A stretch of 64,000 nt of DNA from the NCBI GenBank assembly GCA_029706075.1, contig JAINUG010000178.1:226929-290928 (forward strand), given 5' to 3'. Origin of the DNA: Aldrovandia affinis. Lineage: Eukaryota > Chordata > Actinopteri > Notacanthiformes > Halosauridae. Made by a program: the position numbers and the translations under genes. The notes under the pieces were generated by a model that saw only the letters and a program-made list of their open reading frames with translations, did no database searches and was not told the origin of the DNA. How positions within the stretch are numbered: position 1 is the first letter of the stretch; every line of letters begins with the position of its first letter. Below, in pieces: positions 19,208-55,200 of the stretch.

Positions 19208-19639
19208 GATGATAACTGGGGCGAGACGACGACGGCGGTGACGGGCACGTCGGAGCACAGCCTGTCCCAGGAGGACATCGTGCGCATCACCAAGGACATG
19301 GAGGACAGCGTGGGCGTGGACTGCCGCCGCTACCTGGGCCTGACGCTGGCGGGGGCCCTGGGCCTGCTGGTGTTCCTGACGCCGCTCGCCTTCCTGGCCC
19401 TGCCCCACCTGCTGTGGCCCGAGCGGCTGAAGGCCTGCGGCACGGCCTGCGAGGGCCTCTTCATCTCCGTGGCCTTCAAGCTGCTCATCCTCCTCCTCGC
19501 CGTGTGGGCGCTCTTCTTCCGGCCGGCCCGCGCCGGCCTGCCGCGCCTCTTCGTCTTCCGCGCGCTGCTCATGGTGCTGGTGCTGCTCTTCGTCGTCTCC
19601 TACTGGCTGTTCTACGGCGTGCGCATCCTGGACTCTCAG
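19208..19639 (+). CDS. vangl1: VANGL1 exon with TM1-TM3
   Basis: 432 bases, phase 0 at both ends, 144 codons from DDNWGETTT to RILDSQ. It carries the Ser/Thr-rich [11 protein letters not shown] segment (the cluster phosphorylated in Vangl proteins), KDMEDS, then three membrane spans: [40 protein letters not shown] and [20 protein letters not shown]. The acceptor is CTCTCAG at 19207 and the donor CAG/GTGAGG. It is very GC-rich at third codon positions, unlike the flanking intron. Confidence 0.95.
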
Positions 19640-19860
19640 GTGAGGGCGGCTCTTCACCTGTTGCATGCGTGCGTGCGTATCTGTTTGTGTGTGTGTGTGT
19701 GTGTGTGTCTGTCTGTGTCTGTGTCTGTGTCTGTGTGTGTGTGTGAGTGTGAGTGTGTGTGTGTGTGTGTGTCTGTGTGTGTGTGTGTGAGTGTGAGTGT
19801 GTTAATACTGTCTCTCTCTCTCAGGATGAGAACTACCATGGCTGTGCATGTGCGTGCGTA

Positions 19861-19896
<36 letters not shown>

Positions 19897-21132
19897 AGTG
19901 TGAGAGTGTGTGTGTGTGTGTGTGTGTGTGAGTGTGAGTGTGTTAATACTGTCTCTCTCTCTCAGGATGAGAACTACCATGGCATCGTGCAGTACGCCGT
20001 GTCGCTGGTGGACGCTCTGCTGTTCATTCACTACCTGGCCATCGTGCTGCTGGAGCTGCGGCAGCTGCAGGCCTCCTTCTGCGTGTGCGTCACGCGCTCC
20101 ACCGACGGGGAGATCCGCCACTACAACCTGGGGCAGCTCAGGTGAGCGGGGTCGCAGGCACTTCTGCCTCCTCACCACCGGGGGGCGCTATCTCGGAACC
20201 CTGTAGTGTTCCCACATGGTTCCAGAGATGCTCTGTATGACTTGTCTGTCCTGTGATTGGGACGGGTGCTTCCTGTAACCGTAGCGCATAAACAGACAAC
20301 CTCTATGTGGCTCAGCAGGTAGAGCATGGCGCTGACAAAGCTTAGGCTGTGGGTTTGATTCCCATCGGGACCGCATGTACTGAGAAATGTATGCGTTCAC
20401 TACTGTACATTACATTACAGGCATTTGGCAGACGCTCTTATCCATGTTATTTAATTAACATCCTCAAGGGGTCAATAAACCTTCCCATCACACATATGGC
20501 TGCACACGGTCACGCACGGTCACATGCACAGTCCGGCACATGCATGGTCACACACGTGTGGCAGGGGTGGAGGTGGGTGGAGAGGAAGGAGCCCATGTCT
20601 GGGAACGGCAGAAATGCCGGGATTGTTTGATTTGCGATCGCCGTCGTTATCAACAAAACGGAGATGAAATACTGGCGCGTCTGGCTGCCAGGCTGCAGTG
20701 GGTGTAGTCATTTGTATTATCATAATTACAGCATCTGTCGGCCCTGGGCCTTTGCGTCTGGCCTTTTGATGCCGTTCTGACAGCGGGAAGCTCATCAGTG
20801 TCACAGAACTCTGCCACACGCCCTCGACGCGCCCCCGACACGCCCACCGGCCCAGCGCCGTCAGAACAAACACGGGAAGGAGCCTGGTCACGTGACCGGC
20901 TCCGCTCTCCGGGCCTTTGCTGTCCTCACACGCCCCTCCCCCGTCCCTGCAGGAGAGGAAACGCAAGGGGCTCTCATTAGGGCCTGAATCAGCCTTTAAT
21001 TTAATCCTTCTTTTCTAAACTGTTTTAATATTTCATCAAAGCGAGTACAAGCCCTAATCAGATTTAGCTTCTAAACTTTTCTTTCCGTTTCTTTTCAAAA
21101 CTCAGTGTGTGTGCGTGCGTGCGTGCGGACGC

Positions 21133-21163
<31 letters not shown>

Positions 21164-23647
21164 TATTCTCCATAGCTGTGTCCGTGCACAGCACCACAAC
21201 GAGACTCCTCCTGCCCGGTTTCCAGCCAGTCCCTCCCAGAGCCACAGATCTGGGGTCAGTAAGCAGTCGTGGGCTTCTTACCTTTCCTTTACTGTCATTC
21301 GTTTAGCCAACGCTTTCGTCCAAAGCGACTTACGAGGCCATTGTGGCAAACAACGGCAAATGCAAGGGTAACCGCAAGGTCCAGGCCAAAGTAGGCTGCA
21401 GCATGATGTCAGTAAATCCAGTGCAAAGCCGATTGGACTGAGGGAAGTGAGGTACTGAGTGCTCCGGTAGCTGAGCTTTGAGCTGAGCAGTGTGACAGGT
21501 GGCCAGCGTTGGCACACTACCAGACAGGCTCCTGCTTGAAGTGGAGGCTGTTTCATCTCTCATTCCCCCAGACAGGTGAGCAGAGGACAGGGCCTGCATC
21601 TTGGCTCTGGCTCTTTCACTTCAACAGGGGCCACACGAGGAGAACACGACTTGGGCCAAGATGCATTCCACTGCACTCTTAAAGGATTTTCTAATCATAA
21701 GACAAACCCATGAGTCCACAGTGAAATATTAAAACACCTCTTTACAGTCCCTGTTTTGGTGTGGAGGTGTTTTTGTTTTGTGTGTCCATGTGTGTGTGTG
21801 TGTGTGTTTTTGTGCGTCTATGTGTACCCGCACACATTATTTTGTGTCATCACAAGACATCTAGTCTGAAGAGAACAAAATGGAGACTCAGGGCTGTAAA
21901 ATTGAAGCATTATATGCACTTATTATAAGCACTATGTCTGGCTATGTCATATTTAGGTGGGGAGGTTCATTGGGGATTGGAGGAGGTGAATACACCCCAC
22001 CCATTTCAAGGAGTGGAGATGTCTGTGCTCCCATAGACAATAACACACTGTGCTGGCCTTTGGAAATAGGAAGCACATGTTCCCAAGTGAGCACATGCTG
22101 AGGGCAACGATTAAGTTAGAGCAACTTAATCAATTATCCAAATGCCAGGGCCTGCTGTTTTCACCAGGGCTACTCTTGGAATGTGCGAGGTATAAACTCG
22201 CTCTACACTTGATCTGCATTCTTGCCACTTACTTGTTTTTTTTCTGGGGTTTTTTTCTCACCTCTTTTAAAGGAGAACTCACTTGAGAATGTGGAATCCA
22301 GGCTCTTTCTATGGCATAGTAGCATTTTTCTTCTTTGTTTTATTTCCTATTGTTTTTCTTTCCCTCCTTTCTTTCTCCTTTCTAATTTTTGTCTTTTTTT
22401 TGTTTATTTTTCATGCGTGCACTTGTAACACTTGTTGAAAAGTGCATGCATGATTCTGTGTGTACAATTTTATAGTTATATATACAGTATATGTATATGT
22501 ATTATATATGTATAATTTAATACACACACAATATACAACATACACAAGTCCTGATATAGCAATGCGCTCTGGGAGGTCATGACGTTAGTAACGTTTACGC
22601 TTCACCTTAAATCACTCATTCAGCCGTGACATACACATATGCGGCCTTCTGGCTCACATATCTGTTCATGTGTAGTGTTGTGCCAGAAAACGTCGCGTTT
22701 CATCAAGACCATAACCAGTCATCCTAAAATTCACCCTCAAATCTATTTAGCTTAGGAGAAGCAATGCTTTGTGGGAAATGTTAAACATTATTTCTCTCTT
22801 TGGCTTTAGTACATGCATGTATTTCACAAACGTATAGAAAGAGGACGTACTGGGCGCAGCAACGACATGAAAAACATTCATCATATTTTTTGTATATTTT
22901 TATCTTATATTGTATAGTCGGTAGGAAAGAACAATAGCAGAGGTCAACAATGAAATACAGAGGGGTGTGAAAAGCAAAACAAAAAACATTTTATGGAGAA
23001 TACCAAGAAAGCAGTTCAATAACAACATTCCTCGCTTATTTAAATAAAGAGGGAAATCCGTGTCTTGGGCACAGTGGTGTAATGTTTGGAAACACTTCCT
23101 CTTATCCACTGCTGTGGGATGTGGAGCAGTTGTGTTGGATATTGGTTGGACTGCGGGAATAATGCATTTCCCTGTTGCAGGACTGTTAATGACTATCAGA
23201 GAGTGCTCCTTGTTTGCGCCCCTTGTCACACACTAATTTTGAATTCTTTCTTGAATTATTGTTTTTGTTTTTTCTCTTTCCGGTTTTTCCTCCCAATTTT
23301 GGTAGCCAATTTAACCCTCTATTTAGTTTGAATTGCCCTCGCCCACGAACTTCGCCAATTGCTGCCTCCTTGTGGCACTCCTGGCCGGAGCCGAAACTGT
23401 GTTTGAGAATTTTTTAAGTGCTTTTCGTTTGGCTGACTATTAGGGCACCACCTGTGTCTCACTTCCTGAAAGACGATGTTTACTCGATCGTGATTGGTCG
23501 TATTAAATCACTTACAGTGGGGGGGGTTGAGGGGATCAGCAGTGTACCTCTCTTCAATGCGGGCAGGTGGGCTAGTGGGCGGGAAAGCAGGGCTTTCAAG
23601 GCCTGGCTCGCGATGCTACTTTTTCTTATCCAGGCCCTCTCTTTCTC

Positions 23648-23681
<34 letters not shown>

Positions 23682-25217
23682 CCTCCCTCTCCAGTATCCA
23701 GCGGGCTGCCCTGGCCATCCTGGAGAACTACTACCGGGACTTCCCCGTGCACAACCCCGCCCTGCTGACTGCCTCCAAGTCCCGTGCCGCCAAGCACCTG
23801 GCGGGGCTCAAGGTCTACAACGTGGACGGTGAGTTCTGCGCCCGCCAGTTGGGGGTAGGGGTCTGGTGCCAGGGTATCCGCCCTCATGCCCAAATGATAC
23901 CATCTTATACCTGGGCGCACTACCCACCTGTGGAGGAGGGTTGCCCTGGTGATAGTCAGGATATCTGCCCTCTTACACCCGACACTGACCACCTGGCACT
24001 GTGACGTCACAATGCTGTGTGTTTCTCTCCTGTGTTTTATGTCCCGTTCTTTCTTCTTCCTTTCTTTCTTTCTTTCTGAGGTGCTGACGTTATTTTGTGG
24101 CACTCTCTCTCTCTCTCTCTCTCTCACGTTTCATTCCCTCTGTCTGATACTTTCCCCTCTCTTGCGTCTCCCTGCTCTCCAAAGCCTTTAAAGCGAAACT
24201 GAAAGTGTACCTGCTGGACGGTGAGTAGAAAGAATACATCCTGTTAATGATCTCCTCACTCCCACCGCCCCACTTCCTCACATTGGTTTCTTACGGCGTC
24301 TGCTGCCCCACACACACACACACACACACGCGTGCGCACATGTTGCCCCTCCTCCAATTCTCCTTGAGCCTGTTATTACACCATATTAATTACACCATAT
24401 TTACTGATTAGAAGGATTCATTTAATGTTTTTTGGCGTGTTGTTGGTCCAGAAAGCTTCCCAGCATGCACCTGTGCAGGTTTCGTTTGGAGGCATTTTGG
24501 CCGTTCTCCTTGGCCCCTGGGCATTGGCACGGTCACAGCATGTGGTTTCACAGTCAGCTCTTTCCATTATGGAGTTTAAACACAGTATCCCAAACTATTA
24601 TCACATGAACGACAAGCAACATACATACAGTTATGTGCTTAATTTCTGGTACTTACTTACTTACATATATATACAGTACCAGTCAAAAGTTTGGACACAC
24701 CTTACATCTGGATTACGGCTAACCGGGCACTCCTTCATTCTTCAGCAAGATAATGACCCGAAACACGCCTTGAAGTTGTGCCAGAACTATCTGGTGAAGG
24801 AGGAGCGTGAAGGACAACTAATTACCTGGCCTGCCCAGTGTCCAGACCTCAATCCCATAGAACTTGTATGGGACAAACTGGAAAGGAAGAGTCAAAGCAA
24901 AGCAACCCACAAGTGTCTCTGGGAATTGCTGCAGGAGAGCTGGGAAGACATGTCGGGTGATTTTCTCCTGAAACTTATTAACCGAATGGCCCATGTTTAT
25001 GAGGCTGTTATCATGGCAAAGGGTGGCTATATTGAGGAATCCAAGATTCAGTTTTCAATTCAAATTTCTTGAGCATTGCTTTGATGTTCCTTTTGTTTAT
25101 TGTTACATGCGTTTTTTGTAATTTTCAAGTATTTACAGAAACGTATATGGTGTAAAACATTGTCAATTATGAGATAAACCTAGTTTCCAGCAGGTGTGTC
25201 CAAACTTTTGACTGGTA

Positions 25218-25263
<46 letters not shown>

Positions 25264-28200
25264 ATCGAACAAAAAGTTCGGAAATTTGTGTTTGGTAGAT
25301 TATTTCTCTGTTGTAACAATGCTTCTTGGCAATAAATTGTATACCGTTGGAAAGCCTGTTTATTTCCCTTTTAAATGGTGCCCCATTTGTAAGGAACATG
25401 CATTTGTGGGATGAGCAGCACAGCTGAGTATGTGGGTTGCGCCCATGAAAAATTTGCCAAATCTTCTCTGCCAATGCCAAACAGCTTATTCTGCTGTTGC
25501 TATTGACTCACGTTTGTCTGATCTCCATAAGGCCCGTGCGATAGGGCAACTTCAAGCTGGTGTTCCGCAAAAGCAAGTTGCAGCATTATTTGGAGTGAGC
25601 CCTAGTACCATCTCCAAACTGAAGGCCAAGTTCCATGAAACGGGGGATGTCAGAGACAGACCGCGAAGTGGGGGTCCCAAGAAGACGACACCCCAAGAAG
25701 GCCGGTTCCTCACCCTTTCAGCACTTAGGAACCATAGGCTGTCTTCTACAGATTTGCAGTCAAGGTTTGCAGGACGATATGGCACACGGCTCGGCCCAGA
25801 CAATCCGGAACAGACTGCACGCAGCCAATCTCCGGGCTCATAGGGCCATGACTGCCCTTCACCATCAGGCCCGTTTGCGCTGGTGTCGGCAACACCTGCA
25901 CTGGAACCTGAACATGTGGAGGAACGTTATGTTCAGCGATGAGTCCAGATTCTGCCTACGGAAGTTGGATCATAGGGTCAAAGTGTGGAGAAGACGGGGA
26001 GAACGCTATGCTGCTTGCTGCACCGATAGAGTAACACCTTTTGGTGGAGGCAGTGTGATGGTGTGGGGCGGCATCTCCATCACTGTAAAAACGAGGCTTG
26101 TCATCATTGGAGGCAATCTCAATGCAGAGAGATATCGAGATGAGCTTCTGCAACCAGTGGCAATCCCATATCTCCACAGTCTGGGACCGAACTCCATCCT
26201 CCAAGATGACAACGTTCGCCCCCACAGAGCGGGGTTTATCAGAGACTACCTCCAGAATTTGGGAGTAGAGAGAATGGAATGGCCTGCCAACAGTCCTGAC
26301 CTCAACCCAATTGAACACTTGTGGGATCAGCTTGGGCGTGCTGTTCGTAATAGAGTGACCAACACAACCACGTTGGCTGACTTGCGACAAATCCTGGTTG
26401 AGGAGTGGAACGCCATCCCACAGCAGTGTGGTGACCAGCATGAGGAGGAGGTGCCAGGCTGTTGTGGCTGTGTATGGTTCTTCCACACGCTCCTTGTTAC
26501 TGATAGACTTCAATCATCCAATCCACCAAACAACACCAAACAAGAGTCAATAGCAACAGCAGAATAAGCTGTTTGGCATTGGCAGAATGCCAAATGGGCG
26601 CAACCCACATACTCAGCTGTGCTTCTCATCCCACAAATGCATGTTCCTGACAAATGGGGCACCATTTAAAAGGGAAATAAACAGCCTTTCCAACGGTATA
26701 TCATTTATTGCCAAGAAGCATTGTTACAACAGAGAAATAATCTACCAAACACAAATTTCCTAACTTTTTATTTGATGTTTATATAAACACACACACACAG
26801 TCAACTCCAAAATTATTCACATCCATGGTTAAGATGAGGAAAAAAGGCTGTATAAAATAAACAATAAACACATTTTTTGAGCATACAATATAGCTCATTG
26901 TCTGTATTGTTTATTTTATAGTTTTGCCGTTTACTGTACAGGTAACTGCCAAAATAATGGCAACACTTTGGGAGGGGGGGCACTCAAATTGTCCCAGCTG
27001 GGTGCTTGTGGGCTTGTTGGAAAGGGGAGGGCCGGGCCTATACGCGAGTACTGGCATTGGCACCCCCCAACAGACACTCGCGGTACTGCACCCGTTTAAA
27101 GGATCCCTCATTTACTCAAGCGTTGCCTTTATTTAGGCAGTTACTTGTATATATTTCTGTGTAGAATGTATATCACCAGTTCTATCTTCTTAGGATAGAT
27201 TTAGTAGACTTCTAATGGGCAGAGAATGGGGCTAGCTCAGTCGTACCTGTTTGCGTTTATATTTCTGTAATCGTGACAGTCATAGTCTTCCTGCCCCCAA
27301 CTAATATTTGGAAGTAAAAGGGCTTTGGGCTACAGGGACCCTGAATTATGGAACCACTTTTCTCACCACGTTCAGCAAAGCGGCGTAATCTCATCACAGT
27401 TCCCCTGGCTCAAAATCTCCTTCATTCTGTTTTTAATTCTTTATTCTTTTTTTGGCCACTACTTTGCCGATAAAAAAAATAAAATAATAAGTTGAAGTAT
27501 TTTATCCTATGGATCCTCCCTGTGGATGCGTCCTATGTGTTATCTTTGAATGGATGACGTACGAGAAGTAAATAAGTACGCTTGAGCAGAGAGGGAGACT
27601 GAGGAACGGGGGAATTAATAGAGGGGGAGGGGGAGGGGGAGGAGGAAGAGGAGGAGGAGGACAAGGATGAAGATGAGGAGGAAAAAGAAGAGGAAGGTGA
27701 TGAAGAGAAGGAGGAGGGGGAAGAAGAAGAAGAAGAGAAAGAGAAGGAGAAGGAGGAAGAGGAGGGTGATGAGGAAGAGTAGGAGAAGGAAGAGTAGGTC
27801 CAGCTCCAGCCATCGAACCCTGCCGGGGACTCTTAAACTTCTAACCGAGTTTTAATCAGCAGAATTCTAAAACTACCCAGAATCCCCAGGGGTAGCTGGG
27901 GCTTTCTCAGGATTCTGTGAGTGAGTGGGGTGGGGTGGGGGGGATAGATCCCTGGGACCGGTGTGTGCTGAGTGTGTGTCCTCATAGCACCCTGATTAGG
28001 GGGGGTACTCCCTCCAAGCAGAGTTTAATTAAGAGGTGAACTCTCCTCAAAGTTGAATGAAGTTGAAAACGTCTCTGCCTGGGAGGATGGGAGGATGGGG
28101 GAGGTAATCCAGTCTAAGTAAGTGAAGCTCCCCCCCAGGGGAGGTTTGTGTGTATATCTGCAGTGTATTCTCCATACCGTCCTTAATTCAGCCAGACACG

Positions 28201-31200
28201 GTGTGCGTGTGTTTGTGTGTGTCTCGGTCTGTTTGTCTATCTGTCTGTGTGTCTGTCTGTGCGTGCATCAAAAAGAAGCAAGAAAACATACTGGTTTATT
28301 CACCACAGCTTTCCAAAGAAGGGAAAATGTGTCTGTAGATTGTGTTGGTCTACATACGGGTATGCGCATACATATACATACAAGTAACTGCCAAAATAAA
28401 GGAAACACCAACCTAAATTGTCTTAACAGCGCATTGTCCCACCACAAGCTACCAGAACAGCTTCAATGTTCCTTGACATAGAACCTACAAGTGCCTGGAG
28501 CTCTTATTAGACGGATGCAACCAAGGGATGCACCAAATTCCATCATTTGGTGTTTTGTTGATGACGCCGCTCCAGAATCTCCCATAAGTGTTGAGTTGGG
28601 TTGAGATCTGGTGACTGAGACGGCCATGGCGTATTGTTTACATACTTTTCATGCTCATCAAACCATTCAGTGCCCACTTGTGCCCTGTGCATGGGGGCAT
28701 TATCATCCTGGAAGAGACTACTTCCATCAGGATAGAAATGCTTCACCACAGGATGAATACAATGGCTTTGTATTTATTGGTGTTTACCTTGCCCTCTAAG
28801 GGGTTGAGTGGACCTAAACCATGCCAGGAAAATGCACCCCACACCAGAGCAGAACCGCCAGAACCCTTATTTTATTGAAGTGTTTACTTTATTATGCGTA
28901 TGCACAGAAACGTGCTGTAACCAGCCCTGGCCTTCATCCGGCGACTGCTCCTGACTATTTCCTACATTTCCGTGGCTCAGCTGTAACTCCAATTTATTTA
29001 ATGTTTCAGGTTACAATTAGTGCAGCGACTACCCTATGAATATCAAATTTTAACCGAAATTGTAATTTGCCCTGTAGTCTAGAACCACAAAGTGGGGAAA
29101 AAATTTCAGAAAGAGAATGCAAAAATTAATACACAGCTCGTAAGAGAAAAAAAAAAAAAAAAAAAAAACGAATTTGGCGAGAGAGAGATTTGAAAGTGCT
29201 TGCGCAGGCGGTAATTCCCTGTCAGACCAATTTAATTCTAACACCTCACCTGAGAAAGGAATGAGGTATGGAACGCAATCGCACAGAACATTAGTTTTTG
29301 TTTGAGCCACAAAGAAAAGACGTGGGCAGGACGTCAAATTGTGAAATGAATTGGAGGGGAGGGGGACTTCTTCAAGTTGGTTCTGTGTGGCTCAGCAGGT
29401 AGAGCACGGCGCTGACAAGCGCTTAGGTTGTGGGTTCAATTCCCACTGGGACCACATATACTGAAAAATGTATGTATTCACTACTGTAAGTCGCTTTGGA
29501 TAAAACCGTCTGCCAAATGACATATATTATATTATATAGGTCACGCAAGCGTCAGACAGGTGTGTGCCCACCTGAGAAGTAGCAGCCAATCAGAGGCAGA
29601 GCAGCTAAGAGCGGGCAAGAGTGGGTGGTGGGAGTGGATGGCGGGGTGTGTTGACGATGTGTTCTTCACGCCGTTGGAAATGTGAACCTGTCTCAACCTC
29701 TCTCCAGCTCCGAAGCTCATTTTGGTTTTTGCCGAATCTTCCTTGGGTTGAAATGTCAGGTAAATGGGGGCCTTAGTGAATTAGCCTGAATACATAATGA
29801 ACCTCGTCTCCACAATCTCCTCCTTGTTTTCCTGCGAACCCCTCAGGCATCCATATTCATGCGTAAAATTACATATGTATTCATACCAGAGGCCCGGGGC
29901 TCGAGACAAAACTCACTTGGCGCTCTTTGTGCTTTGAGAATCACGTGTCCGCTTCTCTCGGTGAGGGCAGCTCGTGCGCCTGTCCTTCAGTGGTCCCTGA
30001 GCGATCTTTCCCCAAAGAAGAAGAGAGATCCTTCCCCCTCTTTTCTGAGAGACCCCTCCTCTCTCTGTAGGTTTTACACTATGTTTCAGAGTGGCGTCTC
30101 TTATCTATCCGTCTCCAACTGTCCCGCTCTTTCTCTCCAACTCTCTCGCGCTCTCTAATATCACTTTTACTCCCTCTCTCCCTCTCTCTTTCTCTCTCTC
30201 TCTCTCCATCTCTCTCCCGCACTCGTAATATCACTCTTGCTCCCTCTTTCTCTCTCTCTCTCGCTCTCCATTTCTCTCTCCCTCCCTCCCAGTGTGCTCC
30301 CAGTAGCAGATTAAGCTGCAGAGACAGCAGTGGCATTAAATCAATACCTTTCCGCCCACTGGCATTCCCCCCCGGCCCCCAGCCCCCAGCCCCCCGCCCC
30401 CCAAAGGCCACAGAGAGGTCTCTCCCCTCGTCGCCGTGGCAGCTGCAGCAGGGGGGTGTCGCCCAGCAGTCTCAGAGTTCATCACGGCTCAATCGCTCAC
30501 AGCGGCGTGAGCTCAGCCCAGCGCGGTCACGGCGCCACCTGTGGCTCTCTGGGGAAACGACACGGTCAGGAAAGTGCGCCATCTGGTGGAGAGCTTCACT
30601 CTCACACACCTGCATTACAGTGAGCCGACTGCTGTTAGGAGCAGGACAGGACAGAATAGGGGATCAATAGACGATATTGAATATATAATTTATTAATGGA
30701 TAAAATATGTATGTGTATGTATGCATTTATATACAGTGGGGAAAATAAGTATTTCACCCCCTGCTGATTTTGTGAGTTTGCCCCCTTACAAAGAAAGGAA
30801 CGGAACGGTCGGTCTATAAATTTCATGGTAGGTTCATCTTAACAGTGAGAGACAGAATATTACAAAAAAATCCCAGAAAATCACATTATATGAATTTTAA
30901 ACATTTATTTGTGTTTTATTGAGGAAAATAAGTATTTCACCCCTAGCAAAACAGCAAGAATTCTGGCTCCCACAGACCAGTTATGTGACCAGGAGGCACA
31001 CAGATTAGTCCTCTTACTTAATTAGTACTCCTAATTAAGTACTCTCATTACCTGTATAAAAGACAACTGTCCACAGAATCAATCAATGAATCAGATTCCA
31101 ACCTCTCCACAATGGGCAAGACCAAAGAATTGTCTAAGGACATCAGGGACAAAATTGTAGACCTGCACAAGACTGGAATGGGCTACAAGACCATTGGCAA

Positions 31201-32499
31201 GCAGCTTGGTGAGAAGGAGTCAACTGTTGGTGCGATAATTAGAAAATGGAAGAAACACCAATTGACCATCAATCTCCCTCGGTCTGGGGCTCCACGCAAG
31301 ATCTCACCTCATGGAGTGAACCTGATCATGAGAAAGGTGAGGGAACAACCCAGAACTACACGGCTGGAGCTTGTTGATGATCTCAAGGCAGCTGGGACCA
31401 CAGTCACCAAGATGACCATTGGTAACACACTACGCCGTAATGGATTGAAATCCTGTAGTGCCCGCAAGGTCCCCCTGCTCAAGAAGGCACATGTACAGGC
31501 CCGTCTGAAGTTTGCCAATGAGCACCTGGACGATTCAGAGGAGGCTTGGGAGAAAGTGCTGTGGTCAGATGAGACTAAAATCGAGCTCTTTGGCATCAAC
31601 TCGACTCGCCGTGTTTGGAGGAAGGAAAAAGCTGCCTTGGACCCCAAGAACACCATCCCCACCGTCAAGCATGGCGGTGGAAACATTATGCTTTGGGGCT
31701 GTTTCTCTGCTAAGGGCACAGGACGACTTCACCGGATCGAGGGAGGATGAATGGGGTCATGTACCGAAATCTTGGTGAGAACCTCCTTCCCTCAGCCAGG
31801 ACACTGAAAATGGATTTCTAAGGATTTGGAGAGGATCTGCAAGAGGTGGGCCAAAATCCCTCCTGGGATCTGCAAACTTGGTGACCAACTACAAGAAACG
31901 TCTGACCGCTGTGCTTGCCAACAAGGGTTTCTCCACCAAGTACTGAGTCATGTTTTGCTAGGGGGTGAAATACTTATTTTCCTCAATAAAACACAAATAA
32001 ATGTTTAAAATTCATATCATGTAATTTTCTGGGATTTTTTTAATATTCTGTCTCTCACTGTTAAGATGAACCTACCATGAAAATTATAGACCGATCCTTT
32101 CTTTGTAAGGGGGCAAACTCACAAAATCAGCAGGGGGTGAAATACTTATTTTCCAATGCTGGCACGGTAAAACCCTAATGTGCAGTGGTTGGGTATGGGC
32201 TGTGATTACCATTTCATCTGAAATATGACCTGATTTAGGTCCTGATATAGCGATTAATTCAGCCCTGTATGAGTAAGTTGTGTGTGTGTGTGTGTGTGTT
32301 CGCGTGTGCTTGTGTGTACGTGTGTGTGTTCGCGTGTGCTTGTGTGTACGTGTGTGTGTTCGCGTGTGCTTGTGTGTACGTGTGTGTGTTCGCGTGTGCT
32401 TGTGTGTACATGTGTTTGCGTGTGATTGTGAATGAATGTGCTTGATTCATGTGTATGTGTGTGTGTGTACGTGTGCTTGTGCACGTGTGTGTGTGTGTG

Positions 32500-32541
<42 letters not shown>

Positions 32542-35500
32542 TGTGCATGTGTGTGCGTGTGAATATTAGTATTTGAAATTTTCCAGTCAGTGAATCATGA
32601 CGGTGGATATTGGCTGTTCTGTCAACCTTGAAGGGTGTGATCAGGGGCCCTGGTGCTGTGGACGAGTGGAGGCTGGGGGGGAGGGATGCATTATTCAACA
32701 GCCCTGGCCTGGATATGCGCCGCCTGCTCCGCCAACATTAAAAATCATCTCCTGGAAAAATATAGGTTGCCTTGCATATTAATGCTAAATTTCAATTTTG
32801 ACATCTCAACAAATGGCAACGCCGAACGTCTTAGACAATTTTGGTGAGGATTAATTCCTGGTCTGTCATTTCCGAAGGCGTAAGTCATGGTTGCCCAAGT
32901 TCGGTCCTCGAGATCCACTGGGCATCCAGGCTTTTGTTCCAGCCCAGCACTAACACACCTGATTTGAATATTCATTGTTTTGATGAGCAGTTGATTAATG
33001 AAATCAGGTGTGCTAGTGCCGGGCTGGAACAAAAGCCTGCACAGGCAGTGGATCTCATGGGCCGACATTGGCCACCCCTGGTATAAGTAGTGGGCCAGGC
33101 GAGAGGTGTCTCGTAGACCGTCTCTATTGATACTGTGGGGGTGGGAGAGACTGGGATTTACACCTGAGCAAGGCCCTCTGAGCAACTGGCGCTCTGTTCC
33201 CGTGACAATTCCTCCCAACGTCACGGACGTCCCGCTGCCAACACGTTGCGGCAGCGTTAAGACGACGTTAAGTCAACGTTCTGTGTTCACTGGACACTCT
33301 CTCAATGCTTTTGGGTTTCCGCTAAATGGCGGTCAGCTGTGAACTGCAGAGTGAACCGTCAGTCCACTGTGCGAAGGCCGAGGCTAAAGCGGGTTAGCAC
33401 TGAGACCGGAAGTGACAAAGATTTAAAACATCGACAGCAGCAGCCCATGTCCGTCCTCTCTCCCGAGGTTTGTCCTTTTCTTCCCTGTTTGATTCACGTG
33501 CACACATCAGCATTCGGAGATCACACTGCACGCGATTCACGGGGCACGTTCGTACCACCTTTTGTAAATCGCAGCCTCGAGTACATTTCGGCGAGTAGCT
33601 GTTAAACGCTACAGCCCGATCGATCGACCGCACGATGACGTGTCGAGGCGGCCCAGACCGTGTTCATCGGTCAGCTGGCCACACCGTCGGCACCCTGTCA
33701 CGACACCTGTCACACAGTAAATCACCTCTCCCGTTATCCGCAGCTTGCCGGAGCGGTTTGTCTGCACATCGTGAAAGCCTCTGTGATGTCACAATGGCCT
33801 TTTTCAAAAATGAGTCATCTCGTCGATCTGCACCGTGACGTTCTGCACCGTCGCTGCCAGCTGTGGCTCAGTTCCCATCATGCCCCTCTCCTTTGTGTCC
33901 CCCAGGCCCGGGGAACAACGGCGCGGGGCAGTCCCGAGCCATGATCGCGGCCGCCGCCCGCCGCCGGGACACCAGCCACAACGAGCTCTACTACGAGGAG
34001 GCGGACCACGAGCGGCGCGTGCGGAAACGTCGGGCCAGGTGGGCGGGCAGGGTCACGTGACCTGCACACAGAGCAAGAGTGGCCGTTGTGTCTGATACAG
34101 CAGGCAATGGCTGCTTGTGCTTGTGTCGTTTGTCTTGACACAATTACAGAGTGTTTTTTTGGAATTTGCACGTGACTACGTCCACTTGAAAAGGTGTTTT
34201 AGTGACTGTGCAGTTTAATGTGGCTTTGGGCAGCACTTAGAGAACAAAAGAAGGGATGTTTGTATAGATTAGAGGATGAGTTTGGAATGGGTGGATAAAT
34301 GAATACATGGATGGATGGATTGGAGGAAGGATGTATGCAGGGTTTGGGGGCCAGTGCAGTTTTAATTCAGTCGATTTAGGACATTTATGTCAATTTATTT
34401 CAGTGGAATTCAGTTCAGTTCGATACAGAATGTTATGGGCATTTTCTATTTCCGGAATTGAAGCGGAATTGACCCAAAACCTGCATGTTTTAATGGATAC
34501 CATAATGGATTGATGTATAGACATATGGATGCATGGATTCTAGTATGACATGGTGATAGGTACAGTGTGTAAATATGGTGTGATAAGTAGTGTACATTTG
34601 TTGATTTGATGTACAGTGTAAATATGATCTTGATGATGATAGGCAATGTGTAAATATGATGATGTGGAGTGTAAACGGCTCTGTCTGTGCGCAGGCTGGT
34701 AGTGGCGGTGGAGGAGGCGTTCACCCACATCAAGCGCATGCAGGAGGAGGAGCAGAAGAAGGCCCCCGGTGAGGTGATGGACCCGCGAGAGGCCGCCCAG
34801 GCCATCTTCCCCTCCATGGCGCGCGCGCTGCAGAAGTACCTCCGCACCACCAGGCAGCAGCACTGCCACACCATGGAGAGCATCCAGCAGCACCTGGCCT
34901 TCTGCATCACCAACAACATGACGCCTAAGGTGCGCTCCCACCACACTGTCCGTGTGCTCTACGCTACGCGGGTTTCCAGGACCACCGCGGTCGCCACAAA
35001 CCCGTCGCGCCAGTTTTAGACCGTCGTAATCGTTATTGGGTTCTTCACTCTGAGTTATGCAAGTGTAAGGATTTCTGTCACGTCGTCACTAGATTGCCAC
35101 GGGTTCACAGCTGAAGTGTGAGTCAGATGACTGTGCGAAGGCCTCCGCCCCCTAAAGCTTGCGCTGCGTCCGTGCCTCTGACTGCGTGATGCTCTCCTTC
35201 CGTCGAGCGCAGTTCATTGGTCTGCACGCTTGTGTGCGTTCAGTATGAGAGCGTGTGATAACTGCAGTGATTTTGCTCTGAAGATTCCCATGGAAAATGT
35301 CCACTGTGAAGTGATGTCACAACCACACTGTACACGATCGAGAGATTTATTGATGGATTTATTTAATCATTTAGTGATTGATGGAATTGTAGATTGATGG
35401 ATTGACCGATTGGTGGATGGACGGATGGATTTACGATGGAGTGATTTAGTGACCGAGTGATCAGATTATTGATTGACTGACAAACTGTTTGATTGAACTG

Positions 35501-35782
35501 TGTGTGTCTGTGTGTGCCCAGGCCTTCCTGGAGAGTTACCTGACCCCGGGGCCCACGCTGCAGTACGGGCGGGAGCGCTGGCTGGCCAGGCACTGGACGC
35601 TGGTCAGCGAGGACGCGGTCACCAGCGGCCTGAAGGAGGGCTCCATCTTCCTGCTCAAGTGCATAGACTTCAGCCTGGTGGTGACCACCAAGAGGATTCC
35701 CTACATCAAGCTGTCCGAGGAGTTCATCGACCCCAAATCACACAAGTTCGTCCTTCGGCTGCAGTCAGAGACCTCCGTGTAG
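19208..35782 (+). CDS. vangl1: VANGL1, planar cell polarity protein (3' six coding exons; 5' end missing)
   Basis: Van Gogh-like four-pass plasma-membrane protein of the core planar cell polarity (non-canonical Wnt) pathway, which recruits Prickle and opposes Frizzled/Dishevelled. Exons: 19208-19639, 19966-20141, 23695-23828, 33906-34038, 34695-34929, 35522-35782. All introns are GT-AG and phases join exactly, giving 456 residues. Four hydrophobic segments lie in the first two exons and the protein ends in the PDZ ligand ETSV. Residues such as [22 protein letters not shown] in part, GQSRAMI and ELYYEEA match VANGL1 rather than VANGL2. About 68 N-terminal residues are absent; the full protein is normally about 524 residues. 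It converges on CASQ2, as in human. Confidence 0.93.
19680..19960. repeat. (GT)n-rich intron with internal tandem duplication
   Basis: The whole 326-bp intron after the first recognised exon is (GT)n with TCTGTG interruptions. Two similar halves (about 19668-19842 and 19855-19983) each begin CGTGCGTATCTG and end with the acceptor motif. Confidence 0.85.
19798..19842 (+). repeat. Duplicated 3' splice site and exon start (decoy)
   Basis: GTTAATACTGTCTCTCTC followed by CAG and the 18-base exon start GATGAGAACTACCATGGC is repeated exactly at 19942-19983, the genuine acceptor. After base 19842 this copy runs into GT repeats, so it is a decoy made by tandem duplication. Confidence 0.85.
19966..20141 (+). 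CDS. vangl1: VANGL1 exon with TM4
   Basis: 176 bases, from DENYHGIVQ to LGQL plus two bases of a Ser codon. It contains the fourth membrane span ([20 protein letters not shown]) and the start of the cytoplasmic tail ([14 protein letters not shown]). The donor is CTCAG/GTGAGC. The segment [13 protein letters not shown] is more cysteine-rich than the mammalian sequence I remember. Confidence 0.95.
20299..20450 (+). mobile_element. tRNA-derived SINE, family B
   Basis: The head TGTGGCTCAGCAGGTAGAGC and GGTTTGATTCCCATCGGGAC resemble tRNA A and B boxes, followed by ATGTACTGAGAAATGTATG. After 20408 the sequence switches to an inverted family-A tail (CATTACAGGCATTTGGCAGA). Confidence 0.75.
23282..23412 (-). 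mobile_element. Family C SINE, 3' fragment
   Basis: Resembles the 15044-15180 part of the reverse family-C copy (TTTTGGTAGCCAATTT, GAATTGCCCTCGCCCACGAA, then GCTGCCTCC). Truncated, head missing. Confidence 0.6.
23641..23694 (+). promoter_or_regulatory. (CT)n polypyrimidine tract of VANGL1 intron
   Basis: (CT)n directly precedes the acceptor CTCCAG at 23689-23694; the second case of a microsatellite acting as the polypyrimidine tract in this gene. Confidence 0.8.
23695..23828 (+). CDS. vangl1: VANGL1 exon, cytoplasmic tail part 1
   Basis: 134 bases: one base completing Ser, 44 codons ([13 protein letters not shown] ... LKVYNVD) and one base of Gly. The stretch [18 protein letters not shown] is diagnostic for VANGL1. 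The donor is GGACG/GTGAGTTC. Confidence 0.95.
24185..24220 (+). CDS. vangl1: Candidate 36-bp in-frame VANGL1 microexon
   Basis: A strong polypyrimidine tract and CCAAAG acceptor precede 24185, and a consensus donor (GACG/GTGAGTAG) follows 24220. The 36 bases preserve the phase of the flanking exons (1-1) and would insert [12 protein letters not shown] between VYNVD and GPGNN. The translation resembles the end of the preceding exon (LKVYxxDG), suggesting a partial exon duplication. No transcript evidence is available; inclusion is inference. Confidence 0.5.
24674..25220 (+). mobile_element. Tc1/mariner element, internally deleted (547 bp)
   Basis: Terminal inverted repeats CAGTACCAGTCAAAAGTTTG (24674) and its reverse complement ending at 25220 are flanked by TA target duplications (24672-24673, 25221-25222). 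Between them only the C-terminal part of a Tc1 transposase remains (24716-25071: [16 protein letters not shown]-like [14 protein letters not shown] with the second Asp and the Glu of the DDE triad). The N-terminal DNA-binding domain and first Asp are gone, so it is non-autonomous. Confidence 0.92.
25221..25260. repeat. (TA)n microsatellite
   Basis: Twenty TA units between two Tc1 elements; TA is also the Tc1 target site. Confidence 0.95.
25261..26780 (+). mobile_element. Tc1/mariner element with ~240-bp inverted repeats
   Basis: Long inverted repeats, 25261-25509 and 26544-26780, are imperfect reverse complements (for example GAGTCAATAGCAACAGCAGA at the inner right end). They enclose one transposase gene. 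Total length about 1.52 kb, usual for Tc1 elements. The left repeat has picked up extra bases around 25446-25470. Confidence 0.9.
25500..26450 (+). pseudogene. Tc1 transposase, frameshifted
   Basis: The N-terminal helix-turn-helix region ([37 protein letters not shown]) reads in one frame up to about 25790. The catalytic part continues in another frame ([53 protein letters not shown]). All three DDE-type acidic residues are present (SDES, QDDN, PIEH). A few residues normally found after LRAHRA also seem missing. It is a dead copy. Confidence 0.85.
26800..26925. mobile_element. Small palindromic MITE-like segment
   Basis: 16-bp perfect arms at 26851-26866 and 26905-26920 (TATAAAATAAACAATA), next to CAACTCCAAAATTATTCACA, which resembles another Tc1-family end. 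Confidence 0.5.
26939..27147. mobile_element. Tc1-type MITE (209 bp)
   Basis: Starts CAGGTAACTGCCAAAATAAT and ends with the related inverted end TTTAGGCAGTTACTTG, flanked by TA on both sides (26937-26938, 27148-27149). No coding capacity. Confidence 0.85.
27580..27800. repeat. Polypurine (GGA/GAA)n tract
   Basis: About 200 bases of almost uninterrupted G and A on the + strand, a candidate triplex-forming sequence. The lysine/arginine-rich ORF inside is a composition artefact. Confidence 0.9.
28381..28865 (-). mobile_element. Tc1 element fragment, same family as the MITE
   Basis: The end CAAGTAACTGCCAAAATAAA at 28381 matches the MITE at 26939. On the - strand, 28749-28543 encodes a C-terminal transposase piece ([37 protein letters not shown]). 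The 5' half of the transposase and the other terminal repeat are missing. Confidence 0.85.
29382..29545 (+). mobile_element. tRNA-derived SINE, family B
   Basis: Head TGTGGCTCAGCAGGTAGAGC, B box GGTTCAATTCC, then ACATATACTGAAAAATGTAT and the tail GTAAGTCGCTTTGGATAAAA. Confidence 0.85.
30734..32160 (+). mobile_element. Tc1/mariner element with ~200-bp inverted repeats
   Basis: The left end CAGTGGGGAAAATAAGTATT at 30734 follows a TA. The right copy ends near 32155 (GTGAAATACTTATTTTCC), the last few bases being altered. Both inverted repeats also contain the inner AAGTATTTCACCCCTAGC motif. About 1.4 kb. Confidence 0.92.
31112..31945 (+). pseudogene. Tc1 transposase with catalytic-core deletion
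   Basis: Starts [20 protein letters not shown], with the helix-turn-helix ([18 protein letters not shown]), the GRPR-like linker ([10 protein letters not shown]) and the first catalytic Asp ([11 protein letters not shown]). The reading frame changes near 31748. The segment carrying the second Asp and the Glu (QDNDPKH ... SPDLNPIE) is deleted, going directly to a C-terminal remnant near 31826-31940. Cannot be active. Confidence 0.88.
32280..32570. repeat. GT-rich repeat with 30-bp units
   Basis: Four almost identical 30-bp units (TTCGCGTGTGCTTGTGTGTA then CGTGTGTGTG) at about 32299-32410, then (GT)n to 32560. Confidence 0.9.
32886..33080. mobile_element. Non-autonomous hAT-type MITE
   Basis: Starts CATGGTTGCCCAAGTTCGGT and ends GGCCACCCCTG, with a long internal palindrome (GGCTTTTGTTCCAGCCCAGC against GCCGGGCTGGAACAAAAGCC). 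Flanked by a near-identical 8-bp target duplication (GCGTAAGT / GTATAAGT), the hallmark size for hAT. Confidence 0.78.
33089..33905. other. VANGL1 intron end, non-repetitive
   Basis: No gene or repeat recognised; ends with the acceptor TGTCCCCCAG. Confidence 0.5.
33906..34038 (+). CDS. vangl1: VANGL1 exon, cytoplasmic tail part 2
   Basis: 133 bases: two bases completing Gly, 43 codons ([20 protein letters not shown] ... RVRKRRA) and two bases of Arg. It carries the conserved [15 protein letters not shown] and [19 protein letters not shown] stretches. Acceptor CCCAG, donor CCAG/GTGGGC. Confidence 0.96.
34695..34929 (+). CDS. vangl1: VANGL1 exon, cytoplasmic tail part 3
   Basis: 235 bases completing Arg and encoding [20 protein letters not shown] through [20 protein letters not shown] to NNMTPK. 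This is the part of the tail known to bind Prickle and Dishevelled. Acceptor GCGCAG, donor AAG/GTGCGC. Confidence 0.96.
35522..35782 (+). CDS. vangl1: VANGL1 last coding exon
   Basis: 261 bases, 86 codons plus stop [23 protein letters not shown] leads to [11 protein letters not shown]. The final ETSV is the class I PDZ ligand that binds Scribble/Dlg-type proteins. Acceptor TGCCCAG. Confidence 0.97.
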
Positions 35783-39475: not shown

Positions 39476-39925
39476 CCTAAAAGCCAGAGAGTGAGGCAGC
39501 CCCCCAGTGGGGAGGAGCCTGTATTTGGGGGGGGGCGGGCCCGTCCTCTGCTGGCCGGCCCGGGTGTTAGCAGTGGGCTCTACTCTACTCTCCAACCCCT
39601 CAGCTGCCCACCAAAAGAGCTGGAACAACACAGCAGTCCTTTCTCTGGGCCCAATCTGCCCATCCACCATAGTCACAGTCCTGCCCCAGTCACAGTTATT
39701 AGCCAGTCACAGTCAGGGGCGGCTTTATGGGCTTAAGCCCCGAATGTTTTTAATCTTTTGAGAAAAAAAAAAAAAAAAAAAATTTAAATAACCACACGAT
39801 GCGTGATATTTTTCCTCCCTAGTCTTTCTTCTGACTCTGTAATCGTAAGAAATTACCGTGATGTAATGGAACGATAAACCGCTGGACACCACAGTCCCAC
39901 GTCGTGTAGATATATAGATAGACAT

Positions 39926-40290
39926 ATGCCATTTAGCAGACGCTTTTATCCAAAGCAACTTACAGTTGTGAATGCATTTTTACAGTTTTAGGCATTTAGC
40001 AGACGCTCCTATCTAGAGCGACTTACACAGTTCACATTTCTTTACATACAATCCATTATACAGCTGGATATTTTACTGAAGCAATTCAGGTTAAGTTACC
40101 TTGCTCAAGGGTACAACAGCAGTGTTCCCACCTGGGAATCGAACCTGCAACCTTGGCGTTATAAGACCAGTTCCTTGACCATTATGCTAACACTGCCGCC
40201 CCAGTGAATGCATACATTTTTTAGTATATGTGGTCCCAGCGTTGCCCACACCATGCTCTACCTACTGAGCCCCACACAACCACCGAACCA
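39926..40290 (-). mobile_element. Family B SINE interrupted by a family A SINE
   Basis: The tail of a reverse family-B SINE (CCATTTAGCAGACGCTTTTA) lies at 39928-39982 and its head (TATGTGGTCCCAGCG, then CTCTACCTACTGAGCC) at 40228-40275. A reverse family-A SINE occupies the middle. The duplicated GTGAATGCAT at 39968-39977 and 40204-40213 is the target duplication of the inner insertion. Confidence 0.85.
39985..40203 (-). mobile_element. Nested tRNA-derived SINE, family A
   Basis: Reads on the - strand as head GGCAGTGTTAGCATAATGGT, B box GGTTCGATTCCC, middle and tail; inserted into the family-B SINE. Confidence 0.88.
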
Positions 40291-43311: not shown

Positions 43312-43599
43312 TTAATCGTCATCATCATCGTCATCATCGTCATCATCATCGTCATCATCATCGTCATCATCATCATCATCATCATCATCGTTGTCGTCGT
43401 CATCATCGTCGTCGTCATCGTCGTCGTCATCATCGTCATCATCGTCATCATCATCGTCGTCATCATCATCGTCGTCATCATCGTCATCATCATCCTCAGT
43501 GTTGACCTTCCCAGACAGCACATCCTCAATCCAGTCCTCCAGCTCCTCTGCAGAGGGCAGGTCCTCATCGTCAGGCATGTCCAACCACACGCTGTCAGC
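43312..43599 (-). CDS. casq2: CASQ2 exon 11 with poly-aspartate tail
   Basis: 288 bases, 95 codons plus TAA. Begins [20 protein letters not shown], continues [15 protein letters not shown], then 60 residues of which 59 are Asp and one is Asn (AAC near 43391). GAT and GAC codons are mixed, showing expansion of a GAY trinucleotide repeat. The tail is the calcium-sensing and polymer-stabilising part of calsequestrin. The acceptor is CTGATAG. Confidence 0.96.
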
Positions 43600-52200: not shown

Positions 52201-55200
52201 TTTTTGTTATTTTGGTCCTGTACTCTAGCACTTTGAGATTGAAAGGATACAGTGATAATGAGGTGCAGACTGTCAGCTTTAATCTGAGGGTATTTTCAGA
52301 TGAACTGTTTAGAAATTATAGAACCTTTTGTACATAGTCCCCCCCCATTTTCAGGCACCATAATTCAATATTTTAATATTTGGTCGCATATCCTTTGCAT
52401 GCAATGACTGCTTGAAATCTGCAATGCATAGAAATCACCAGACGCTGGGTATCTTCTCTGCTGATGCTCTGCCAGGCCTGTACTGCAGCCATCTTCAGTT
52501 CCTGCTTGTTTCAGGGACTTTTTGCCTTCAGTCTCCTCTTCAGCATGTAAAATGCATGTTCAATTGGATTCAGATTCAGTGATTGACTCGGCCAGTCAAG
52601 GATTTTCCACTTTTTGGTTGTCCCCTTCGTTGCTCTAGCAGTATGTTTCGGGTCATTGTATTGTTGCATGATGAAGTGCCGTCCGATGAGTTTGGAGGCA
52701 TTTGGTTTTATGTGAGCAGATAAAATATTTCTGTAGACTTCAGAATTCATTGTTCTACTTCTGTCTGCAGTCACATCATTGATGAAGACAAGTGAGCCCG
52801 TTCCACTGGCAGCCATACAGGCCCAAGCCATAACACCCCCTCCACCATGTTTCACGGATGAGGTGGTATGCTTTGGATCATGGGTATTTCCTTTTTTTCT
52901 CCACACTTTCCTCTTTCCATCACTCTGGTACATGTTAATCTTTGTCTCATCTGTCCACAAGACTTTGTTCCAGAACTCTTGGGGCTCTTTTAAGTGCTTT
53001 TTAGCAAACTGTAATCTCGCCTTTCTGTTCTTCAGGCTTATCAGTGGTTTGCATCTTGTAGTTTACCCTCTGTAGTCCTGCTGGTGTAGTCTTCTACGTA
53101 TGGTAGACTTTGACACATCTACACCTGCATCCAGGAGCGTGTTTTTGATCTGTTGGGCCGTTGTCAGGGGGGTTTTCTTTAACATAGAGTATTCTCCGGT
53201 CATCCACTACAGTGGTCTACCAGGTCTTTTGACATAATTGAGTTCACCAGTTGTATTTTTCTTGTTAATGATGCACCAAACTGTGGACTTGGCTGGGTTT
53301 TTGCAATGTTCCTGATTGATTGATTTTCATTTCTGAACCTTATGACGGCCAGCTTAATTTGCATCGACACTGCTGTCTTCCTCATGTTGTCACACCCCAA
53401 CAACAATCTCCAAAGACAATTGCAAAGTCTAGAATCAAGACTAGACATCAACAGCTCTCTTCTGCATTCACTAACAACACAAATTAATACACCTGCCTAA
53501 CGAAACACATCCGTGAAGCCAATTCAACAAATACTTGTAGTACCTTAAAATGGGGGGACCATGTACAAAAGGTGCTGTCATTTCTAAACGGTTCATCTGA
53601 TATGGATGAAAATACCCTCAAATGAAAGCCGACAGTCTGCAGTCTGTGTCCTTTCAAACTCAAAGTGCTAGAGTACAGAACCAAAATAACAAAAAATGTG
53701 TCACTGTCCAATGAATTATGGTGCTCACTGTACATAATTTGTTAGAAATCATGCAATCAATCATCAATCATGGGGGAATGCTGTGAGGCTCAGTAGGTAG
53801 TGGACGGTGCTGACAACGCTTAGGTTGTGGGTTCGATTCCCATTGGGACCACATACACTGAAAAATGTCACTACTCTACTGTAAGTTGCTTTGGATAAAA
53901 GCATCTGCTAAATGGAATATGTTATGTAAGACAAACATTGCATCACCTGCAGCTCAATTATTAAAAACCCAACACTGCAATGCTTTCAGTTTGAGGTACA
54001 ACCAATTTCTCTTTGCCCAGATGTACACAATATTAACCCAAAAAATGCATTTTCAATTGAATTATAATCTATTTAAAATTAATCAAGCCTCAGGTGACAA
54101 TGGCAAGGAAAAACATTGCTTGGCTGAGAGTACAGGAATGAAGGAATGAAACCGGTTGTATAATAGTGTATACGTCCCCTCCTCTTTAAATAGGCCCATC
54201 GGACATGTCAATAAAGAGGCCAGGTCTTCCTGACAAATGAAACACAAGAGCTGTGTTTAAGAATAAGGGGATCACTGCCTGCATGGCTGCTTCCAGAGAG
54301 TGTGTCTCCCCCCTTTTATAATGAAATGGTACAGCTGGTCATCATTAAAGAGCAAAACCGTTTGGGGGTGTGGGGAGGATTGGTCAATTTTTTTTGTTGA
54401 CGGGTGTGTGGGTGGGTTGGTGGGGGGGGTGCAGAACTGTATAAATACTTTGGCAATTTTGCCTGCTCAGCGATACTGTGTGCATCTTTAGCCCTGGCAT
54501 GAAAAAAACCGTCACCAAGTTGTCAGTAAACAGCAGCACATATGGTCTGGCGAAAGCCTTGTGTAAGCCGATAGGGTGGGGGAATAGCCACGGCAGCTGA
54601 GCACTTTCAATAAATAGCCCAGGAAGAGTCCGATTGTTCTCAAGAGCTGCTGGAAAACGTTCAAAGTGCACCGAGCCAACTTAAGGGCAGTAAATGAATT
54701 CCTTCCGACAGCCTGTAAGCAGGGCAAGACTTCAACTGTATTTTACGAGCAGCGAGACTTGTCATTTTTATACATTTTTGTAGGAATTTGTGCAATGCTA
54801 TTGAGTCAGAAAATGTGAATCAGTGCTCATTCACTAACCTGAAACTGTCATGTCATGGTATTGTTACAGGTAACCTAATTCATTCACGATTAAATTCACT
54901 CCGAAAGCGGCAGTATGCAGAATGGAAAGAGGGGCTGAGAATAGAACCATGTGGGACACCTCCATTAAAACAGGACAGGGTCAAGTGGTATAATTCCCTG
55001 CTGCTTGCTTGACCACGCTGAGCTATATTTGTTAATGTCACTCCCCTTGGGATGCAATATAATCTCTGACTTCATTAATCCATCATCTGCACACAACTCA
55101 ATTAAGAACTTTAAATGTCAGCACAAAGCCAAATTGTGTTCAAGTAGATGAATGTTCAAAACAACTACCACTTACAACTAATACGAACTACCAAGCTACA

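Follow-up and report, generated by a model that had tools for sequence, protein, structure and literature searches.

A candidate 36-nucleotide cassette microexon in vangl1 of Aldrovandia affinis and its likeness to the end of the preceding exon

The intron between two exons of the planar cell polarity gene vangl1 in Aldrovandia affinis holds 36 bases that can be read as a small in-frame exon, which raises the question of whether these bases are spliced into the messenger, and of where they came from. The locus was followed up in a 64-kb stretch of contig JAINUG010000178.1 (226,929-290,928), hereafter the window, with vangl1 on its + strand. An earlier note made from the same letters had proposed a microexon with an excellent pyrimidine tract and an AAAG acceptor, born by partial duplication of the preceding exon.

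The host gene and the frame of the candidate exon

Six exons of vangl1, from 19208 onwards, were examined (Table 1). All six matched the Pfam family PF06638 (Strabismus), collinear with the profile. The exon before the candidate matched human VANGL1 chains (PDB 8zxd and 9jk6) at an E-value of 1.2e-17 compared with 6.2e-10 for VANGL2 (9jk7), and the exon after it is also nearer to the VANGL1 than to the VANGL2 chains. The last vangl1 exon scores slightly closer to VANGL2, which counts against the VANGL1 assignment. The exons flanking the candidate encode VANGL1. Exon 34695-34929 includes an 11-residue stretch whose equivalent in human VANGL1 is MESILQHLAFC. Farther along, at 43315-43599 on the - strand, a calsequestrin gene (PF01216) ends with Asp repeated over a very long stretch, an arrangement that fits the human VANGL1-CASQ2 neighbourhood.

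Table 1. Positions of the features discussed, numbered from the first base of the window
Feature	Position	Strand	Remarks
VANGL1 exons examined (n=6)	19208-19639, 19966-20141, 23695-23828, 33906-34038, 34695-34929, 35522-35782	+	
VANGL1 exon before the candidate	23695..23828	+	134 nt, ends GAC/G; matches PF06638 and PDB VANGL1 chains; presumed source of the duplication
3' tail of the preceding exon with its donor	23801..23834	+	in register with 24193-24226
CU repeat tract	24103..24124	+	upstream of the candidate
Branch-point-like CTGAT	24144..24148	+	A lies 37 nt before the acceptor G
UGC motif	24163..24165	+	-22 from the exon
UGC motif	24173..24175	+	-12 from the exon
Candidate acceptor AG (AAAG/C)	24183..24184	+	weak, 5.4 bits
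Candidate in-frame cassette microexon	24185..24220	+	36 nt, phase 1-1, 12 residues
Corresponding end of the candidate with its donor	24193..24226	+	repeat search: 28-nt pair 24199-24226, 75% identical
Candidate donor GTGAGT	24221..24226	+	strong, 9.9 bits, equal to the donor of the preceding exon
VANGL1 exon after the candidate	33906..34038	+	starts GC CCG, 13 residues read from its start; matches PF06638

The candidate is bracketed by CCAAAG on its 5' side and by the donor on its 3' side, contains no stop, and reads (G)CC TTT through to GAC/G, so that both junctions are in phase 1. If it is spliced in, a stretch of 22 residues can be read across the junctions, in which the insert is followed by the G of GPGNN. 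The insert carries three Lys and one Asp among its 12 residues. The coordinates, length, phase, peptide and GTGAGT donor that had been given for this exon were all recovered as claimed. Skipping the preceding exon while keeping the candidate yields a stop right after GQLSL, indicating that the candidate is workable only as an added cassette; a mutually exclusive exon pair was ruled out on the same ground, since translation would end at once if the candidate took that exon's place. A poison exon in the form of a simple cassette was likewise ruled out, because the insert is open and the frame is kept.

On the protein, the insert would come after the residue aligned to position 315 in 8zxd (human VANGL1), and the next exon resumes at 317. 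In the PDB chain alignments VANGL2 is two residues longer than VANGL1 across this junction (316, then NN at 323). The same place counts four positions in the Pfam profile and three in the VANGL1 of A. affinis. As the lengths of VANGL2 and of the profile differ at the junction, the linker there is variable in length and could plausibly accommodate an insert. No insert is present at this junction in the Pfam consensus or in the human VANGL1 and VANGL2 chains.

Several mobile elements were noted in the window. Five 3' tails of the LINE UnaL2 (RF00436), an element first described in eel, lie at 1251-1304, 29473-29526, 39923-39976, 53868-53921 and 55748-55801. Together with two tRNA-like hits they make up the seven Rfam matches in the window, none of which falls at the candidate. 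Open reading frames revealed transposase remnants, which we take to be Tc1/mariner-like, at 24700-25070 and 31022-31747 in the intron that follows the candidate.

Likeness to the end of the preceding exon

When the candidate and the preceding exon are aligned from their donors backwards, 15 of the last 22 bases, 18 of 28 and 18 of 36 are identical. The comparison set comprised the 8,128 GT sites of the two strands other than that of the preceding exon itself, and among these the 15/22 match is the best, with a runner-up at 13. Permutation gave p values of 4e-5 (22 bases), 3e-5 (28) and 0.001 (36), which became 6e-4, 4e-4 and 0.007, respectively, when the three donor-adjacent bases were omitted. 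The candidate is also an outlier among 141 strong GTRAGT donors (18/36, the next at 15). Over 36 bases, one other GT site of the 8,128 does better (20/36) and four tie; once the donor anchor is dropped, 142 of 127,927 positions reach 18/36.

Over nine codons, AGLKVYNVD in the exon and AKLKVYLLD in the candidate, there are 10 base differences, five of them in third positions, and six residues are kept. In 20,000 trials in which equally many differences were placed at random, as many residues were kept without a stop in 1.3% (seven codons), 0.55% (nine codons) and 0.07% (12 codons) of cases. The base differences spare the encoded residues.

Outside this stretch the likeness fades. Identity in the flanks is low (9/40 downstream and 21/72 upstream), and the upstream two thirds of the exon are not recognisable. 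At the protein level, the exon end is matched within the window with an E-value of 0.49, which ranks first among the hits once the exon itself is set aside. A local alignment of the two regions with gaps allowed recovered the CT run alone and no longer homology. The lack of similarity between the flanking introns suggests that the duplication is old. The comparison thus points to a probable partial duplication in tandem, of old date, that took in the 3' tail of the preceding exon together with its donor and of which the coding part was kept, although the stretch concerned is very short. The birth by partial exon duplication that the earlier note had suggested gained support from the 15/22 match, subject to the same shortness of the homologous stretch.

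Origin of the candidate as a copy of a repeat was considered as well and rejected within the window. A repeat search of 23600-24500 returned the 28-nt match to the preceding exon. A tandem-repeat scan of 23000-26500 reported CT, TA and one 14-nt unit, none of them over the 36 bases, and tblastn of the insert within the window gave no good second copy, the next best match having an E-value of 1.1.

A separate duplication was observed elsewhere in the gene. Positions 19774-19842 are an exact 69-bp copy of 19915-19983, 141 bp apart, and the repeated unit includes the acceptor of the VANGL1 exon at 19966 as well as its initial 18 nt (DENYHG). Use of the acceptor in the upstream copy would keep the frame, the 141 bases being 47 open codons, and would insert a Cys/Val-rich peptide derived from a GT repeat. 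This copy represents either a second, recent partial exon duplication in vangl1 or an assembly effect at a microsatellite.

Splice sites and the layout upstream of the acceptor

Splice sites were scored with weight matrices. The candidate acceptor reached 5.4 bits, compared with 11.8-14.8 bits for four other vangl1 acceptors; it has A at -3, -4 and -5 (the base before AG being -3) and C at +1. The acceptor, credited with an excellent pyrimidine tract in the earlier note, is weak at the AG itself. Inside the intron the donor ranks second among 665 GTs and the acceptor 49th among 628 AGs. Pairs of AG and GT scoring at least as high as both candidate sites and lying 9-60 nt apart number one on the + strand, namely the candidate, and three on the - strand, two of the latter being open in the tested frame. 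Because the control strand also yields pairs at the same cut-offs, the splice-site scores alone are suggestive and not decisive. If 60 nt or more free of AG are required as well, the candidate is the only pair left on either strand of the window.

The sequence before the acceptor was compared with that of exons controlled by SRRM4 and its eMIC domain. For eMIC-dependent exons of the fly, the 3' splice site is reported to be very weak, with UGC nearby and a long AG exclusion zone; long alternating UCUC tracts, strong branch points and short surrounding introns are reported as well (PMC8797185). These features recur in mammalian targets, two excepted: a weak 5' splice site and a downstream branch point of unusual strength (PMC8797185). 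For zebrafish, the layout is described as a UGC and a UC repeat, or a tract of like kind, immediately upstream (PMC12626420).

The candidate shares much of this layout. It is short, a multiple of three and open in frame; its weak 3' splice site is preceded by an AG exclusion zone of 104 nt; and UGC lies near the acceptor together with a UCUC-rich tract. The CTGAT element fits the branch-point consensus YTNAY, a motif common enough to occur at 18-45 nt from 2,816 of 8,106 AG sites. The short surrounding introns of fly eMIC exons are found upstream of the candidate (356 nt) and not downstream (9,685 nt).

How often the combination occurs was counted over the 8,106 AG sites of both strands, with cut-offs picked after the site had been seen, so that the counts are descriptive and do not constitute a test. 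At 40 of the sites an AG exclusion zone of at least 60 nt coincides with a branch-point-like motif and with a UGC no more than 25 nt away; asking in addition for at least four CT units leaves two, and only 24185 has a GTRAG 9-60 nt downstream. With four CT units, 24185 stays the sole donor-bearing site for AG exclusion cut-offs from 30 to 100. Lowering the CT requirement to two units gives 5 to 89 qualifying sites depending on the cut-off, 1 to 7 of them with a donor. At the loosest settings 81 to 89 AG sites qualify and seven have a donor. The whole layout is absent at all six regular vangl1 acceptors tested. A CT run taken by itself is present at three of these six, and CT runs are common in the window.

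Competing explanations and comparison with known systems

These observations led us to favour, with about an even chance of being right, a cassette microexon of fish vangl1 that was born by partial duplication and is under neural control of the SRRM4 (eMIC) type. On this account the 3' tail of the preceding exon and its donor would have been partially duplicated in tandem long ago, and the 36 bases would now be used by the spliceosome. The weak AAAG/C acceptor may cause skipping in most tissues, and SRRM4 acting at the UGC motifs may bring about activation in neurons. The predicted Vangl1 isoform would carry the 12 additional residues, with their three Lys and one Asp, in the length-variable cytoplasmic linker, and the insert could tune the binding of partners such as Prickle. 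Recent cryo-EM work is cited as defining PRICKLE motifs that are rich in negative charge and bind VANGL (PMC12859043), so that a positive insert might alter Prickle binding.

The nearest competitor is a chance pseudo-exon that is never spliced, in which 36 open bases of a CT-rich intron lie by accident between an AG and a strong GTGAGT, and the short likeness to the neighbouring exon is coincidental. The weak acceptor, the three control pairs on the - strand at the same cut-offs, the weak protein-level E-value (0.49) and the abundance of CT runs in the window all speak for coincidence, which nevertheless is rather unlikely given a donor-anchored match that is the best of 8,128 (for the last 22 bases, p between 4e-5 and 6e-4) and the gathering of UGC, AG exclusion, CU tract and branch-point-like motif at the same site. 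Another alternative is a dead relic, in which part of an exon was indeed duplicated but the copy has lost its splicing, or never had it, and has been kept by chance. Such a relic would account for the probable homology to the preceding exon, for the weak acceptor and for the exon's unrecognisable upstream two thirds, and the clearly recent partial copy at 19774-19842 shows that such copies arise in this locus. It is nonetheless improbable, as the frame is open, the strong donor is intact and the differences spare residues despite the decayed flanks, and as the eMIC-type layout is present.

A further possibility is a small exon that is broadly or constitutively included in the vangl1 of this lineage, free of neural control. 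The strong donor, the long AG-free pyrimidine tract and the kept frame would suit such an exon. It is nevertheless very improbable, since the acceptor is far weaker than the four neighbouring acceptors and the insert is missing at this junction from the Pfam consensus and the human VANGL1 and VANGL2 chains.

For the favoured cassette microexon, a bolder version can be formulated, in which an undescribed SRRM4-controlled neural microexon derived from the duplicated last ~28 bases of the preceding exon would give rise to a neuronal isoform with a repeated LKVYxxDG and extra positive charge, and neuronal planar-polarity complexes would differ from epithelial ones. As a prediction from sequence this version is doubtful. 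The in-frame microexon reading of the earlier note drew partial support from the frame, the duplication match and the acceptor layout, with its description of the acceptor corrected; the two Lys-rich turns that it placed ahead of the Prickle-binding tail are a prediction. If the exon is used, a core planar cell polarity protein would possess a neural splice switch by which VANGL complexes are altered without a second gene. If the proposed origin is true as well, a microexon would have arisen from the tail of a neighbouring exon while fitting the SRRM4 layout, which bears on the birth of such exons.

In the open-access literature, VANGL1 and microexon together gave no match, nor did four peptide strings. 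VANGL1 combined with cassette exon retrieved only a giant panda cataract paper, in which the terms were unrelated (an abbreviation list and a gene list). The remark in the earlier note that no such cassette was known in mammalian VANGL1 fits this literature, where none was found.

Among known systems, the candidate resembles the vertebrate neural microexons controlled by SRRM4 (nSR100, with its eMIC domain), which are likewise short and in frame and have a weak 3' splice site, a long AG exclusion zone, UGC and a UCUC-rich tract (PMC8797185); the UGC and upstream UC repeat are also described for the SRRM4-type layout in zebrafish (PMC12626420). In size, its 36 nt exceed the 27-30 nt limit of some authors and lie below the 51-nt limit of others. 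Tandemly duplicated homologous exons offer a second parallel, as the candidate follows its presumed source at a distance of 356 nt and has the same phase and donor; unlike them, it is recognisable as a copy in its last part only and cannot replace the source. A third parallel is Vangl2-Long, in which an extra in-frame segment also makes a second VANGL isoform (PMC11065751). That segment, however, is described as extending the N-terminus by initiation at an AUA codon and is reported absent from Vangl1 (PMC11065751), whereas the candidate would be an internal splice insert in vangl1.
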